This document shows positions 1 through 5,264 of a stretch of 5,977 bases of DNA, piece after piece. This stretch comes from Methanobrevibacter sp. (GTDB lineage: Archaea; Methanobacteriota; Methanobacteria; Methanobacteriales; Methanobacteriaceae), in assembly GCA_017652345.1 (NCBI GenBank), contig JAGCBE010000067.1:1-5977 (forward strand), written 5' to 3'. Numbering within the stretch: the stretch's first letter is position 1; each line of letters begins with the position of its first letter. A program made the translations under genes and the position numbers. The notes beneath the pieces were generated by a model. That model saw nothing but the letters and a program-made list of their open reading frames with translations. It ran no database searches and was not told the origin of the DNA.

Positions 1-383
1 ATCCATTGAAGCATTACAGAAGTAAAAGTACTAAAAGCTGCTTCAGTTGACCATGCTCTTTTGCTCAAGTAATAATCAACTGTAATGTCAATTTGTCTAA
101 ATTGATCAATAACTATTTCTTGAACTTCTGGAGCTTTAGGTCTATTGATTGATAATAAATTTGCTGCTTCAGAATCAGCACCCCATACTCTTGATTTTAA
201 AATATCTGAAGCATAGAATAATTTTGTGTCTCCATATAAGGATCCATCCACTTTGAAATGATCAACTAATTGGGAATAAGTTCCCTTAATGTTGTCTGCA
301 TAAACTTGCTGGCTTATAATCATATTATATATAGCCGCAAAAATTTCATTGGAATTAAGACTTCCACCAAAAGCTGTTGGCAT
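1..383 (-). CDS. Probable major capsid protein, N-terminal part (cut by window edge)
   Basis: The first 127 residues are present; the gene continues beyond base 1. The ATG at 383-381 is preceded by AGGAGG inside the end of the scaffold gene, and the two genes share one base in a TAATG junction, so translation is probably coupled. Seen: the segment around residues 45-73 (VDGSLYGDTKLFYASD, then a WGAD at 67-70), RPKAP at 81-85, and a YLSKRAW segment at 105-111. I recall this kind of N-terminus from capsid proteins of small phi29-like and gut phages, but this is from memory and not a search. The position directly after a short acidic coiled-coil protein matches the phi29 order of scaffold (gp7) then major capsid protein (gp8). 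The protein would form the prohead shell. An alternative is another abundant virion protein. The HK97-fold core, which would settle it, lies outside the window. Confidence 0.65.
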   Translation of the reverse strand, partial: MPTAFGGSLNSNEIFAAIYNMIISQQVYADNIKGTYSQLVDHFKVDGSLYGDTKLFYASDILKSRVWGADSEAANLLSINRPKAPEVQEIVIDQFRQIDITVDYYLSKRAWSTEAAFSTFTSVMLQW

Positions 384-892
384 TATTTACCTCCTATTAA
401 ACCTAGCTCTTTTAATTTTGACATAGGTAAAGCTTCTTTAGTCTTACTTTGTAATAAGTTTGTAAACAGTAAGCTATCCCCATTTGAGTCATCTATGCAA
501 CTTTCAACGATGTTCACAAGATTTTCAATTTTTTCTGAATCAGAAGCTGATGGAGTAATTTGATGACCAGTTGGTAAAAATGGATCTTGATGTCCTGCTT
601 TTATTTCTTCTTCTCTTAATTTAAGAGTTGTCTTCCAAAATTCTAAATTGTTTAGATCTCCAGAAAATAATTTCTTTCTTAATTCGTTTGGATCTACATG
701 TTCTTCTTTTGGAGTTTCTACTTCAACTGGATTTCCATTCACAAGCGAATTTAAAAGTTTACGATTTTCTTCTACTTGCTTGTCATATGTTTCTTTTGAA
801 ACAGTATTTTCCTTTAATCTTTTGATTTCTTCCAAATAATCTTGTTCTAGTGGATTTTCCTCTGTTTTTTCAATTTCGTTGTTTTCTGCCAT
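383..892 (-). CDS. Probable prohead scaffolding protein, 169 aa
   Basis: This is a highly charged, glutamate/lysine-rich, mostly helical protein with no membrane segment or enzymatic motif. Residues about 3-50 are predicted coiled coil (YLEEIKRLKEN and VEENRKLLNS heptad-like runs). A proline-containing linker follows (VETPKEEHVDP), then a short C-terminal helix ending LKELGLIGGK. Such proteins, placed just before the major capsid gene, are the usual phage scaffolds that template prohead assembly and are later lost. The reading frame is open further upstream (to 1015), but that extension is cysteine-rich, runs through a promoter and a hairpin, and has no ribosome binding site. The ATG at 892 has AAGGAGG seven bases upstream and is the better start. 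The stop codon overlaps the capsid start by one base. The function is inferred from position and composition. Confidence 0.7.
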   Translation of the reverse strand: MAENNEIEKTEENPLEQDYLEEIKRLKENTVSKETYDKQVEENRKLLNSLVNGNPVEVETPKEEHVDPNELRKKLFSGDLNNLEFWKTTLKLREEEIKAGHQDPFLPTGHQITPSASDSEKIENLVNIVESCIDDSNGDSLLFTNLLQSKTKEALPMSKLKELGLIGGK

Positions 893-1022: not shown

Positions 1023-1370
1023 CTATTTGAAAAGTTTTTGAATTTTTTTATTTATTCTGTCTGTAATTCTATCAGACATATTACCATATTTACATCCATA
1101 TTTTTTTTGGATGGCCTCTATTCTTTGTTTTGCACTGTCTCTTGAATATCCCATTGAAAGACTATCAAAATTTGAATATTCATTAGTGATCCAATATTCT
1201 ATGGATAGTTTTTCTAAAATAGGATTTCCATGTTTATTTAAAAAATCTTTAGTAATTTCTCTTTTGCCAATAAGAGCTTCTATTACTATTTCGTATTCTG
1301 AAAAGGTATCTCGCAATAGATAGTTTGATAAATTCATATATGCTAAGAATATAGCTTCATTAGTTTTCAT
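1023..1370 (-). CDS. Hypothetical protein, 115 aa
   Basis: I do not recognise this protein. It is helical and basic at the C-terminus (DRINKKIQKLFK), with aromatic residues around 59-68 (EYWITNEYSN) and a patch at 72-96 that includes SMGYSRDSAKQRIEAIQKKYG. No membrane segment, signal peptide or metal-binding motif is visible. The ATG at 1370 has no good ribosome binding site of its own but overlaps the end of the 21-aa gene by 11 bases, so it is probably translated by coupling. It is the last gene before the internal promoter and lies between the packaging ATPase/RNA and the scaffold. A role in virion assembly or host interaction is possible but not shown. Confidence 0.7.
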   Translation of the reverse strand: MKTNEAIFLAYMNLSNYLLRDTFSEYEIVIEALIGKREITKDFLNKHGNPILEKLSIEYWITNEYSNFDSLSMGYSRDSAKQRIEAIQKKYGCKYGNMSDRITDRINKKIQKLFK

Positions 1371-1435: not shown

Positions 1436-1570
1436 TTATTTCATATTATCTTGCCCAACTATAATTTCAAATGGACGATTTAATTGTTCTAAACATTTTT
1501 GGATGTCATACCATTCACTCACAACTTTAGTTATGAACAATTCTTCTGGTTTTATACTTTCTTTTTTCAT
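1436..1570 (-). CDS. Hypothetical small protein, 44 aa
   Basis: The ATG at 1570-1568 follows AAAGGAG with a six-base gap, one of the stronger sites in the window. The product begins MKKESIKPEELFITKVVSEW and ends VGQDNMK. It is soluble and slightly charged with no recognised motif. It begins 15 bases after the closing helix of the structured RNA at 1585-1714 and ends within the ribosome binding site of the 21-aa gene. The function is unknown. Confidence 0.55.
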   Translation of the reverse strand: MKKESIKPEELFITKVVSEWYDIQKCLEQLNRPFEIIVGQDNMK

Positions 1571-1584
1571 AGTATCTCCTTTGG

Positions 1585-1714
1585 TGATCGGATATGAAAG
1601 GGTATCCTAATATGTGCTAACCACACTTGGCTCATGTGTCAATCTCTGGCACCTCTTCGGCTGCAATCCAGAAAATTGATTTTAACAGATATATATTAAG
1701 ACCGCATCCGACCA
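1585..1714 (-). ncRNA. Candidate packaging RNA (phi29 pRNA-like branched RNA)
   Basis: A 130-nt non-coding stretch starts three bases after the ATPase stop codon and is visibly richer in G+C than its surroundings. I worked out its minus-strand fold by hand. Helix P1 joins the ends: 1714-1706 with 1593-1585, nine pairs with one G-U. Helix P2: 1702-1693 with 1613-1604, ten pairs with two G-U. Inside P2, hairpin P3 pairs 1679-1668 with 1649-1639 (11 pairs, one bulged U) around an 18-nt loop. Hairpin P4 pairs 1638-1634 with 1626-1622 around GAGCCAA. P3 and P4 abut with no spacer. Paired ends, a long stem, then a larger-loop hairpin followed by a smaller one at a three-way junction is the layout of phi29 pRNA. 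The size also fits (about 120 nt essential in phi29). phi29 pRNA forms a ring on the prohead connector and binds the gp16 ATPase. I found only a weak loop-loop match (GCC with GGU) and no clear promoter, so the RNA may be processed from the operon mRNA. Alternatives are a cis-acting mRNA element or a terminator, though no U-run is present. Confidence 0.6.
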
Positions 1715-1716
1715 TA

Positions 1717-2757
1717 TTAACCTCTTGGCTTTAATAGCTCCAATTCTTTTTTAAACATTTTTTGTGTAATAAGATTTCTAAAATAAAAACCTCTTGCATG
1801 AAATGCAGATATAATATCATCTCTAGTAGCTATATTAAATACTCCATCTAAATATGGTTGCATATTTATTGTATGTACTTTTTCATTGTTATATTGAGCA
1901 ATTATTCTGCCATCCCAAAGTGTGAAAGCTACAGTCTTGCCAAATCTAATTACAGATGTTGGCTTCCTTAGTCTTCCTTTATAAACAAGGCTAACATCAA
2001 CAATAACTTTGTTCGTAAATGTTGATGCATCGGGAGCCAATAAATCAGCTATTGTTCCTTTTCTTCTTTCAAGATATTTTTTTCCTGGTGGAATATAATC
2101 AACAACTGCTTTCTTTTTTCTCAGATAATATCTTCCAAATTCTTCTGGAATAAAATTAAATGAACACATTATATCTGAAGCTTCTTCCAAAGTATTTCCA
2201 ATTAAAACTATTCTTAATTTACTTGGATCTTTGGTAGATCTAACCAAGTTTTCCATTTGATTAACAAATGCATAGTTTATATCAAACGTTCGTTTCTCAT
2301 TCTTTTCTCTGTTCATTTCATCCAAGCAGATATTATATCCCTCAAAAAATTCATTGTCATACAGTGCAACACCTTTATCATTGTAGAAAGTTGAAAGAGC
2401 TAAAACCTTAGCCATTTTTTTGCCATGATCATAGACAGTTCCAGCTTTCCGTGTTAACTTTAAATTGTTTTTTCTCATTATATCAGCATCCACAAATTCA
2501 GCTGCATTATTAGCTAATAGTTTCTTTACAGATGCTTCAGTCAATCTAAGCCAAATAAATGGCTTGCCTTTTGTCTTCCATTCATGAACGAAATAATCCA
2601 TCCAAGAATAGCTTTTTCCAGCTTCTCTACCGCCAATACAAATATAGAAGAAGGCCCACATTATTCCAAGCATAGATCTAATAGAATACCATTCACTATC
2701 TTTGAACTTGCGTTTCATGTCAAGTTCTTTGAGTAATTGCTTAGTAGATTTTTTCAT
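1717..2757 (-). CDS. DNA packaging (encapsidation) ATPase, phi29 gp16-like, 346 aa
   Basis: This is the motor ATPase that pumps phage DNA into the prohead. Walker A is at residues 41-49 (IGGREAGKS, with K48 and S49 binding nucleotide). Walker B is YNICLDEM at 141-148, with D146 for Mg2+ and E147 as catalytic base. IVLIGNT at 183-189 looks like the sensor strand with its conserved asparagine (N188). The GGRxxGKS form of Walker A and the length (332 aa in phi29 gp16) fit the phi29-type encapsidation ATPases. Like gp16, it is far shorter than usual large terminases; the C-terminal 130 residues are beta-rich and need not be a large-terminase nuclease, as phi29-type genomes are unit length with bound protein. 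The start overlaps the preceding stop (TAATG) and has only a weak ribosome binding site, so coupling is likely. The candidate pRNA follows directly, which supports the assignment. Confidence 0.88.
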   Translation of the reverse strand: MKKSTKQLLKELDMKRKFKDSEWYSIRSMLGIMWAFFYICIGGREAGKSYSWMDYFVHEWKTKGKPFIWLRLTEASVKKLLANNAAEFVDADIMRKNNLKLTRKAGTVYDHGKKMAKVLALSTFYNDKGVALYDNEFFEGYNICLDEMNREKNEKRTFDINYAFVNQMENLVRSTKDPSKLRIVLIGNTLEEASDIMCSFNFIPEEFGRYYLRKKKAVVDYIPPGKKYLERRKGTIADLLAPDASTFTNKVIVDVSLVYKGRLRKPTSVIRFGKTVAFTLWDGRIIAQYNNEKVHTINMQPYLDGVFNIATRDDIISAFHARGFYFRNLITQKMFKKELELLKPRG

Positions 2758-3545: not shown

Positions 3546-4017
3546 TTTTTGCCTCACCATCTTCTACTTGTTCTTCTTTCCATGTGTTAATTTCTTTTTC
3601 AAATCTATTATAAGCCACTTCTAAAATATCTGAATGTTTTAATGCAATATATAATTTGTTTAATTTATTACCATCAAGTTCTTTGATAAATTGTTCTTGA
3701 CTATATTGGGCTTTACGCTTAAAGTCTTCCCAAAAATCTAAAAATTTATTATTTTCATATAGATCATGAAGCTCTCTTTCTGTCATATCTTCTGTTAGCC
3801 ATTCAATAATCATATTATATTTTTGGCTTGTTATATCATCAATAAGTTTCAATCCAAAGTTGGGCTTATTATTTATTATAAATACACGAGTATCTGCATC
3901 GGCCTTTTCCGGATGTTCTCTTTCGTATTCTTTCATTCTTTCAACCAACATATCTCTCAAAATTGTTAATCTTTGTGTTTCTATCATTTGTTGTTCCATT
4001 ATATCTTTAATTTCCAT
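3535..4017 (-). CDS. Hypothetical protein, acidic and helical, 160 aa
   Basis: The ATG at 4017 lies within the last codons of the polymerase gene (11-base overlap) and is preceded by AAGGAGA at suitable spacing. The product is strongly helical. It has an N-terminal coiled-coil-like stretch (residues about 1-36, including RDMLVERMKEYEREHPEKAD), a short beta-like segment at 43-57 (TRVFIINNKPNFGLK), then further helices rich in Trp, Asp and Glu, and an acidic tail (EEQVEDGEAKNDN). No known fold or active site is evident to me. It sits between the polymerase and the terminal-protein candidate, so a replication accessory role, perhaps protein-protein contacts, is a guess from context only. Confidence 0.7.
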   Translation of the reverse strand: MEIKDIMEQQMIETQRLTILRDMLVERMKEYEREHPEKADADTRVFIINNKPNFGLKLIDDITSQKYNMIIEWLTEDMTERELHDLYENNKFLDFWEDFKRKAQYSQEQFIKELDGNKLNKLYIALKHSDILEVAYNRFEKEINTWKEEQVEDGEAKNDN

Positions 4018-5071
4018 GTTCTTTATCTCCTTTTTCTTCTAATACATGTATTCCCTCTTCATCTAATCTAAATTGAATTAGTGGAGCTTCATAGATATCT
4101 CCCCACTCCCATTCACTACGATCTTTTACACGATCTAGTGATGTCATTCCCCTAATAACTGGATTGTATTTGCCGTTTTCTATGAATTCATACGCACCAG
4201 CTGACTTGATTCTTAGTTTGCAGTCAACATGATCATGATGCCATTGTCCTATGTTTGGCCCCTCGTGTTCATCGTGATATTGTTCTCCAGTATACCAGAA
4301 TCCATCGGTATTATAGAGCAATATAATTCCACCGTTTTTTTCAACAAATTTGGCCAATCTCTCAACTCTTCTGTTATTGTCGGCTATTGCATCAGCTGCA
4401 AGTCCTGCATATTTCCATCCGATATTTCTTGAGTGAAACATGCCGATGGAATAATTTAAAATAGCTTTATTGATTTCAACTTTTTTTCTGGATTCAAATA
4501 AATAAGTTATTAAATCCGTAAATTCTGGATGAGTTCTCATCAATCCGCAAGGATAGGATGAATGCCAGTCAATATGATGAACATTTGAATAAATAACATC
4601 ATTATATGCGTATGGCCCTAATTTGATTAGTGGTTTTTCTGTTTTATCTGAAATTTCTTTACCATTTAAAACAGCATATTTTGACATATCTATGTGATAT
4701 TGTTCGCATAGATCCAAAAATTTCCAATAGGCTTTAGTTCCTGATAAAATCTGATTTTTTTCATCTGTTGCAGGAGATGGCCGAAACTGTATCCTATAAG
4801 CAAAAGAATCAATTATAATAATTTCTGCACCAATCAAGGAAAATGAATAAGAGTAGGCGGGAAGATTTATGATCCCTGATGTTTTTATTCCTCCTGATGG
4901 TGTTAGTTTTAATTCATAAAATTTGTTTGTTCTTACATATTGCAAGACATCATTAAAAAGTTCGGAATTTTCAACAGTCGGCTTAATAAGAGTTACAGGA
5001 ATTTTAAGCTTGTTTAAATTTTGCGAAGCTTTTATTTTTTGCGAGCTTCTCAACAATATTGGCTTTTTCAT
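4007..5071 (-). CDS. Minimal family B DNA polymerase (palm domain, protein-primed-like), 354 aa
   Basis: The polymerase motifs of family B appear in order. Motif A is HIDWHSSYPCGLM at 166-178, where D168 is the metal ligand and SSYP matches the SLYP box. Motif B is KAILNYSIG at 202-210 (K202 contacts the incoming nucleotide). Motif C is LLYNTDGFWY at 251-260 with D256. A lysine-rich stretch follows (KLRIKSAGAYEF, about 285-296), like the KxY region of phi29 polymerase. In motif C the usual first aspartate is Asn254. In related family B enzymes the second aspartate is the essential ligand, so activity may survive. phi29 polymerase has 572 aa. Here about 165 residues precede motif A with no visible exonuclease motifs, and only 34 residues separate D168 from K202 (134 in phi29), leaving no room for TPR1. 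I chose the ATG at 5071 (MKKPILL); in-frame TTG codons lie at 5087-5095. The start overlaps the 86-aa gene by 68 bases. Confidence 0.75.
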   Translation of the reverse strand: MKKPILLRSSQKIKASQNLNKLKIPVTLIKPTVENSELFNDVLQYVRTNKFYELKLTPSGGIKTSGIINLPAYSYSFSLIGAEIIIIDSFAYRIQFRPSPATDEKNQILSGTKAYWKFLDLCEQYHIDMSKYAVLNGKEISDKTEKPLIKLGPYAYNDVIYSNVHHIDWHSSYPCGLMRTHPEFTDLITYLFESRKKVEINKAILNYSIGMFHSRNIGWKYAGLAADAIADNNRRVERLAKFVEKNGGIILLYNTDGFWYTGEQYHDEHEGPNIGQWHHDHVDCKLRIKSAGAYEFIENGKYNPVIRGMTSLDRVKDRSEWEWGDIYEAPLIQFRLDEEGIHVLEEKGDKEHGN

Positions 5072-5264
5072 CTCTGTTCCAGCTCTCAACAACAAGCCCA
5101 GACAATGACAGCCTTTTTTCTATTCTGTGCACTGTTGGATCATGTTTCAATGTGTTTATAATTTCTTTTGCTTCTTCATCATTGCGTGCACGATAAGAGA
5201 AGAAAAAGACGGATCTTTTTCCTCTCGTGTCGTTTATATATTCAGTTGTAATTATATTATACAT
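5004..5264 (-). CDS. Hypothetical protein, 86 aa
   Basis: I do not recognise this protein. It has a mixed beta-alpha look: SVFFFSYRARNDEEAKEIIN at residues 18-37 suggests a strand followed by a helix, then a second strand around 47-62 (RIEKRLSLSGLVVESW), and a lysine-rich C-terminal helix. This could be a small ferredoxin-like or RNA/DNA-binding fold, but that is a guess from pattern only. The ATG at 5264 has AAAGGT upstream and comes 12 bases after the stop of the 177-aa gene. Its 3' end overlaps the polymerase frame by 68 bases, with the polymerase in the +1 frame relative to it. This is the longest overlap in the window. Confidence 0.6.
   Translation of the reverse strand: MYNIITTEYINDTRGKRSVFFFSYRARNDEEAKEIINTLKHDPTVHRIEKRLSLSGLVVESWNRDEKANIVEKLAKNKSFAKFKQA

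Follow-up and report, generated by a model that had tools for sequence, protein, structure and literature searches.

To our knowledge, the phages named as carriers of a packaging (prohead) RNA, or pRNA, infect Bacillus or close relatives, with Cp-1 cited besides. Our phi29 pRNA reference was positions 201-318 of NC_011048 (minus strand) in the RF00044 alignment, which scored 145.4 bits as the positive control. According to passages of two papers, the pRNAs of Bacillus podoviruses (GA-1, SF5, M2, Nf, DLc1, and others) share little sequence identity and have a common fold with covarying loops (PMC12670572, PMC5340915). The same passages of the former, a study from 2025, describe how Infernal searches of complete virus genomes, seeded with phi29, GA1, and DLc1, added 12 pRNAs, and they stress the covariation of the loops (PMC12670572); its text contains none of the strings "Clostridi", "metagenom", and "Streptococc". 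In a section of another paper, the GA-1 type of pRNA is placed away from the genome end (PMC9965433), and a further source cites Cp-1 of Streptococcus as another pRNA carrier, whose RNA escaped reliable detection by a phi29-type model (PMC6266182). The open-access literature, covered by title and start of abstract and with subscription papers and preprints outside that scope, yielded no pRNA report in the group of phages considered below. The RNA that we describe here, encoded next to a phi29-type packaging ATPase, is very probably a divergent packaging (prohead) RNA gene.

Packaging genes of the window and of related contigs

The window, by which we mean the whole stretch of 5,977 nucleotides that was analyzed, looks, on its minus strand, like a segment of a small phi29-like phage. 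Its gp16-type packaging ATPase of 346 aa (1717..2757, minus strand) matched PF05894 (E 8.5e-10) and the terminase family PHROG 2150 (E 3.4e-16), and the structure model of the protein had a mean pLDDT of 75.6. Among 7997 candidates scored, 3169 were relatives of this ATPase with E<=1e-3, and by a hand count among the matches listed, the longest contig measured 11-17 kb for 45 of 120 ATPase relatives. Phage records gave 31 matches to the window ATPase at E<=10, none of them spanning more than 80% of its length; at the protein level six Bacillus phage matches reached E<=1e-5 with approximately 26% identity, and blastn of the window DNA against the phage collection revealed no relative. Compared with the Bacillus podoviruses, the present phages are uncultured and their ATPases are distant. 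A profile of 37 ATPases (A1) matched two entries in the PDB, 5hd9 (E 8.7e-8, encapsidation protein) and 7jqq (E 6.4e-8, DNA packaging protein), the latter presumably being the packaging enzyme of asccphi28, a phage that resembles ours in possessing a related ATPase. For the asccphi28 genome, its authors report no evidence of a pRNA (PMC7823558).

The scaffold-like protein of the window (383..892, minus strand) was assigned its role from gene order, since it lies 5' of the capsid gene. The latter encodes the N-terminal part of a phi29-type major capsid protein (3..383, minus strand; PF25622, E 5e-4, below the cut-off) and is cut by the window end; no connector gene was recognized in the window, which stops within this gene. 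The next ORF 3' of the RNA encodes 44 aa (1436..1570, minus strand) and had no family match in Pfam or PHROG. Together with a 115-aa ORF at 1023-1370 (minus strand), likewise lacking a convincing match in these two collections, it occupies the space between the RNA and the scaffold gene.

Relatives of the RNA were sought by a pattern scan that used an ATPase alignment in a genome collection of 84,980 species. Among the 47 candidate stretches, four contigs encode an ATPase relative (L001-L004, which as full contigs became L140, L143, L142, and L141, respectively). The same fold was recognized 3' of the ATPase in L143 with a shared CCGAAGAGG motif, the motif led to the copy in L140, and the copy in L141 was found by reading the spacer 5' of the scaffold gene. 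The fifth copy is located in L139, a second contig of the genome that contains L142, and accompanies a more distant ATPase (E 2.3e-99 to the ATPase profile). The five RNAs of the window, L143, L140, L141, and L139 are 128-133 nt long. With the copy in L142, described below, the RNA relatives number five, from four public genome assemblies, and their contigs all encode a phi29-type packaging ATPase, so that an ATPase is present on 6/6 RNA-bearing sequences; the L141 contig ends within the ATPase gene. A gp10-type connector (PHROG 2038) was detected in L140, L141, and L143, which are the three contigs examined for it of the five companions. The scaffold-like protein of the window shows 42, 36, 34, and 28% identity to its counterparts in L143, L140, L141, and L142, respectively, and L139 has an ORF at the scaffold position with a similar start. 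The capsid fragment is 59-70% identical to the L140, L143, and L141 proteins and 37% identical to that of L142. In L143, L140, L141, and L139, the scaffold gene follows the RNA too closely for any ORF such as the two small ones of the window to fit in.

The bins that hold the relatives are labelled Candidatus Ruminococcus equi (class Clostridia), Muribaculum, uncultured Clostridia bacterium, and Clostridiaceae bacterium, which makes three Clostridia-type labels of four and one Muribaculum; as these genomes are assembled bins, host assignment is uncertain. The bin names suggest that the relatives come from guts. One of the bins (G003) contains two distinct phage contigs of this kind, C43 (L142) and C67 (L139), both of which carry an ATPase and an RNA of their own. 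In IMG/VR, no relative was found via the window ATPase, the ATPase alignments A1, A2, and A5, the capsid alignment A7, or the window capsid fragment, and a motif scan there gave nine loci, none of which encodes a relative by tblastn with 15 queries. The first short motif had matched at least 120 stretches in IMG/VR, most of which served as negative controls. ATPase searches across genomes gave matches in 2/398, 1/295, 1/297, and 2/394 genomes, all of them already known from the pattern scan. The L139 ATPase had two matches in phage records at E<=0.01, the L143 capsid protein had none in these records, and the L143 ATPase had no plasmid match.

Anatomy of the RNA and its likeness to phi29 pRNA

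A preliminary description of the locus, made by eye, had drawn an RNA in which paired ends of 9 bp enclose another helix and a pair of abutting hairpins, one larger than the other. We confirmed that the minus strand of 1585-1714 encodes a conserved structured RNA, which occupies the interval from the ATPase stop to the ribosome binding site of the 44-aa ORF and measures 130 nt from paired end to paired end, as defined by the fold, a match to covariance model R2, and covariation. The paired ends, the second helix, and the two unequal hairpins of the earlier fold all stand, whereas the end helix P1 has 10 pairs rather than 9; that fold was also incomplete, as it missed the six-pair helix P3, the AUAUC bulge below P3, and the bulge in arm 1.

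The anatomy is that of six comparative structures, which were set by hand and contain no non-standard pair. From the outside in, the elements are P1, a joint, P2, the AUAUC-like bulge, P3, a three-way junction, arm 1, and arm 2, with all coordinates below referring to the minus strand. P1 starts 2 nt past the ATPase stop codon and, by the fold and the comparative structure, pairs its 5' strand at 1705..1714 with its 3' strand at 1585..1594 (10 pairs); the full 10-pair P1 also occurs in L143, L140, and L142, and it is weaker in L141 and L139. The joint between P1 and P2, GG at 1702..1703, can pair with CC at 1601-1602 and reads GG / ACCCU in most of the RNAs. P2 is formed by 1693..1701 with 1605..1613, and at its boundary with P3 the 5' strand carries the conserved AUAUC bulge (1688..1692), whose ATAT columns are invariant in alignment A4. 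P3 pairs 1682..1687 with 1615..1620 (six pairs). Arm 1 (1639..1679) comprises P4a (1675-1679/1639-1643), P4b (1668-1671/1646-1649), and P4c (1659-1661/1651-1653) and is capped by a GAAGA loop (1654-1658), which is GAGGA in L142; a C-G pair of P4c is changed to G-C in 2/6 RNAs (L141 and L142). On the 5' side of this arm lies the 6-nt bulge AUUGCA (1662..1667), a candidate interlocking sequence, which has 6 nt in all six hand-set structures and is drawn with 5 nt by RNAalifold. Arm 2 (1622..1638) consists of P5 (1635-1638/1622-1625) and a 9-nt loop (1626-1634; 7 nt in L142), the candidate partner of the bulge. No ORF of at least 40 aa overlaps 1585-1714 in the window. In L140, a 56-aa frame runs across the RNA copy.

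The size of 130 nt and a topology identical to that of the RF00044 alignment bear out the initial impression of a phi29-like architecture. Both RNAs are ~120-130 nt long, within the ~120-175 nt of the structural class, and share paired ends, a stem bulge on the 5' strand, and a three-way junction with the arms in the same 5'-to-3' order: arm 1, with two helices, a 5'-side bulge, and a short apical hairpin, precedes arm 2, a plain hairpin. The class features further include complementarity between the bulge and the arm-2 loop, which involves AACC in phi29 and whose support here depends on the score used, as well as a gp16-type ATPase in the same genome and a gp10-type connector, the latter found in L140, L141, and L143. 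Several differences from phi29 were also observed. The stem has an extra helix break here (P1/P2/P3, with the AUAUC bulge by P3), and the arm-1 bulge has 6 nt with 1 nt opposite, compared to 9 and 0 in phi29, where it lies under a 4-pair hairpin. The arm-2 loop has 9 nt (7 in L142) versus 5 in phi29, and the junction linkers are 2-3, 0, and 1-2 nt versus 1, 3, and 0. The apical loop is a conserved GAAGA (GAGGA in L142), unlike in phi29. Finally, the present RNA is encoded among the ATPase and scaffold genes, whereas the phi29 pRNA gene is located near the genome end.

A search with the Rfam model of phi29 pRNA, suggested in the preliminary description, turned out negative: RF00044 (gathering threshold 100 bits) does not recognize the window RNA at E<=10, nor does it match L139-L143 at E<=1, and Rfam had no match at the window interval. 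In the opposite direction, covariance model R1, built from the five RNAs, gave no match to the pRNA in phi29, its best score of 11.8 bits lying elsewhere in the genome. As RF00044 and R1 do not cross-match, the RNA may or may not share descent with phi29 pRNA.

Covariation, covariance models, and folding energy

Covariation was assessed on A4, a structure-blind and almost gapless MAFFT alignment of the five RNAs, which provides a cleaner test than the six-RNA alignment A6 with L142 added. On A4, 81.9% of the 204 pair cells were standard, compared to 62.3 +/- 2.4% in shuffles (0/500 as high) and 35-42% for slid structures. Changes on both sides preserved pairing in 30 of the 42 pairs, G-U pairs included, so that the compensatory changes on which the preliminary description had staked its fold are clearly present, with 0/500 shuffles as good. 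On A6, which leans towards the structure because it was fitted to the model, pairing extends to 86.4% of the cells, with both-side changes in 35 of 41 pairs. On A4, P3 had 95.8% of its cells paired, with both-side changes in 4/5 modelled pairs, and P2 had 79.5%; on the model-fitted alignment of six RNAs, the latter reached 97.9%, and 8/8 of its modelled pairs had both-side changes. P1 was the weakest helix on A4 (57.1% of cells), owing to the poor P1 of L141 and L139 and an offset of the L140 P1 in the alignment. Each of the eight modelled helices contains at least one pair with both-side changes, the paired ends being weak in L141 and L139. RNAalifold alone recovered P2, P3, most of arm 1, and arm 2; on the five-RNA alignment it did not predict P1.

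The R1 model found the sixth copy blind, at 112-241 of L142 with E 1.7e-6, a value that, like all E-values of R1 and R2, is rough because of the short calibration; folding of L142 with wider bounds revealed the full 10-pair P1, formed by 98-107 with 225-234. The R2 model, built only from L143, L140, and L141 (alignment A9) with the window left out, found the window RNA at 1584-1714 (minus strand) with 76.6 bits, a likewise rough E of 2.5e-19, and 0/42 non-standard pairs, and also detected L139 (E 4.9e-8) and L142 (E 1.3e-7). Another hold-out alignment, A8, containing the four RNAs other than that of the window, was set aside since L139 was misplaced in it. In genome searches, R1 had hits in 1/29, 1/150 (run with stricter filters), and 1/3 genomes, that is, in 3/182 genomes with four matches, all on known ATPase contigs. 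No R1 match at E<=1 was obtained in 797 kb from 86 of 129 IMG/VR loci, and nine distant phi29-like phage records (L148-L156) showed neither an R1 match at E<=10 nor an RF00044 match at the gathering score. A search of 49 loci (39 from IMG/VR, phi29, and L148-L156) with R2 returned one match with E 7.6, taken as noise.

Folding energies were less informative. The minus strand of 1571-1716 had a z-score of -0.99 (34/200 shuffles as good), and exactly 1585-1714 had -1.88 (8/200) and, in an independent rerun, -1.73 (11/200); the plus strand scored -0.08. The z-scores of the relatives were -2.55 (L143), -2.13 (L140), -1.81 (L141), -1.00 (L139), and +0.39 (L142). The comparison with shuffled sequence, proposed at the outset as a check, therefore proved weak: z-scores separate the RNA poorly from shuffles, near the result that had been named as adverse, and carry little information. 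The comparative structures exceed the computed minimum by 6.8-9.3 kcal/mol and hence rest on comparison rather than on energy. Energy alone leaves the claim of a structured RNA undecided, and comparison lifts the RNA above chance. Single-sequence energies so close to those of shuffles would be consistent with a signal at the DNA level or with hairpins that arose by chance in a spacer, in either case devoid of RNA function. We regard such an origin as extremely improbable, given the both-side changes that keep pairs in 30 of 42 cases, the detection of the held-out window by R2, and the consensus promoters at the RNA 5' end in L140 and L142 described below. Based on these results, we conclude with high confidence that the RNAs constitute a family with a conserved fold that is not recognized by Rfam.

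Genomic position, loop complementarity, and predicted function

The RNA was originally described as fused to the end of the ATPase gene, an arrangement that holds for the window and two relatives (3/6), in which the RNA lies 3' of the ATPase gene (L143 and L139). It does not extend to L142, where the RNA precedes the ATPase gene, or to L140 and L141, where the two are 3-4 kb apart. Replacement of the interval by unrelated sequence, mentioned in the preliminary description as a sign against the RNA, does occur locally in L140 and L142, with the RNA being elsewhere on the same contig. This varying place among the ATPase and scaffold genes suggests that the RNA moves as a unit. The RNA is situated directly 5' of the scaffold gene in L143, L140, L141, and L139, and its 3' neighbor is the ATPase gene in L142 and the 44-aa ORF in the window.

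Perfect promoter-like sites were found at the RNA 5' end in two of the genomes. In L140, a TTGACA-17-TATAAT site (12/12) ends 4 nt before P1 and is the only 12/12 site on its strand over 14.6 kb; in L142, the same arrangement ends 3 nt before P1 and is one of three 12/12 sites on the strand. The other four RNAs (window, L143, L141, and L139) have no promoter-like site of at least 10/12 just before them, and in the window promoter-like sites near the RNA were not above chance (2 found, 3.5 expected); here the RNA may be released by cleavage of the ATPase transcript. An 11/12 promoter-like site separates the RNA from the scaffold gene in L139, and one in L143 overlaps the 3' end of the RNA, so the scaffold mRNA need not carry the RNA in these phages.

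The location directly 5' of the scaffold gene in four genomes would suit an RNA that works in cis, as a 5' leader or regulatory element of the transcript for the ATPase or for the late (scaffold-capsid) genes, for example in translation control or antitermination. The L142 copy (98-237) would suit it as well, since there P1 extends with its 3' strand up to the ATPase start codon, across the likely Shine-Dalgarno sequence, so that RNA folding could compete with ATPase translation. However, the 3' neighbor is not constant among the six RNAs, the promoter-like sites at or near the RNA argue against a simple mRNA leader, and a leader does not predict complementarity between the bulge and the loop. 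We therefore consider this explanation unlikely.

The complementarity itself was evaluated by several scores. In the window, L143, L140, and L141, bulge positions 2, 3, 4, and 5 pair with loop positions 8, 7, 5, and 4 in 16/16 Watson-Crick pairs, in a register that skips one loop base and into which L139 fits with only 1/4 pairs. This register was the best of 63, and among 120 loop permutations only the native one reached its score, as did 0/2000 letter shuffles and 0/2000 column-preserving shuffles, or 6/2000 with the four RNAs alone. By pair counting, 85% of the bulge-loop cells were paired compared to 53.9% in shuffles (1/500), the count of both-side changes being less striking (39/500). 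Other registers join CGUU with AACG in L139 (four contiguous pairs) and ACUAC with GUAGU in L142, the blind sixth copy (five contiguous pairs), and with one skipped base allowed, the native loops were the best of 720 permutations. By duplex energy, the native loops were no better than swapped ones (64/120 permutations and 615/2000 shuffles as good). Contiguous pairing with G-U allowed was not significant (153/720 permutations as good), and 25/720 were as good with Watson-Crick pairs only; with loops extended by two bases per side, 6/720 (Watson-Crick) and 301/720 (G-U allowed) reached the native contiguous pairing. The L139 loop entered the duplex-energy and contiguous tests in a version with a 3-pair P5 and the register and pair-count tests by its MAFFT columns. 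Since the loop test was designed after five RNAs had been seen, and since significance is lost by duplex energy and with G-U pairs, the strength of this signal depends on the scoring. Judged from the sequences, the arm-1 bulge likely contacts the arm-2 loop, and this pairing may run between molecules.

The same pairing could equally be formed within one molecule, as an intramolecular pseudoknot. It may also be absent, a possibility with which the duplex energies agree. The RNA would then be a structured trans-acting RNA of another function (a regulator, a decoy, or a binder of a capsid or replication protein) with a coincidental likeness to pRNA, for which the GAAGA and AUAUC motifs, with no recognized counterpart in phi29, could also be cited. 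We deem this very unlikely, as topology, size, loop complementarity, and location on contigs with a gp16-type ATPase together match a pRNA. The interpretation as a packaging RNA, put forward in the preliminary description, is thus supported by its size, topology, arm-1 bulge, bulge-loop complementarity, and the presence of every RNA copy found on an ATPase-bearing phage contig, with the packaging function as a prediction.

As a packaging RNA, the ~130-nt transcript made by the phage would have its paired ends as a stem, from which two arms leave a three-way junction, and it may accumulate as a free molecule. By analogy with phi29, the arm-1 bulge of one RNA would pair with the arm-2 loop of the next, and several copies would assemble into a ring at the portal vertex of the prohead. 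The gp16-type ATPase would attach to the stem, with the ring as a scaffold while ATP hydrolysis drives the DNA in. Ring formation, binding to the ATPase or portal, and a need for the RNA in packaging are all predicted from this analogy.

Two origins can be envisaged for such a family. Either it does not descend from phi29 pRNA, so that RNA-scaffolded motors arose or were re-invented more than once, or pRNA is an ancient shared part of the gp16-type motor that has escaped sequence searches throughout a very large group of uncultured phages. We advance this pair of alternatives tentatively, as a possible but doubtful extension of the pRNA interpretation. If either were true, many, perhaps most, natural RNA-assisted packaging motors would be of this unannotated kind, and a packaging RNA across the group of 3169 ATPase relatives, if present, would greatly widen the known range of such motors. 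The age of pRNA thereby becomes testable, as a single ancestral RNA versus several origins, and the models R1 and R2 can be used for annotating such genomes.

Some further genes of these phages were noted. The window encodes a 362-aa protein (4007-5095, minus strand) in which HIDWHSSYP and LLYNTDG were spotted by eye, which we take to be family-B polymerase-like motifs; it had no convincing Pfam or PHROG match, shares 41% identity with an L141 protein of 339 aa, and is short compared to phi29 gp2 (1145-2863). A protein of similar size in L140 (4491-5591), which does not align with that of the window, matched DNA_pol_B_2 (PF03175) with E 1.8e-5, just below the cut-off. A DUF5906/primase-helicase-like protein and an ERF-type annealing protein are encoded in L140 (3444-4481) and L141 (2569-3321, minus strand). 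The replication genes thus differ among these phages, and the phi29 record names neither a primase-helicase-like nor an ERF-type gene. Finally, L149, a phage contig from human faeces whose ATPase match is weak, carries a tRNA gene at 5132-5204 (RF00005, 64.8 bits).
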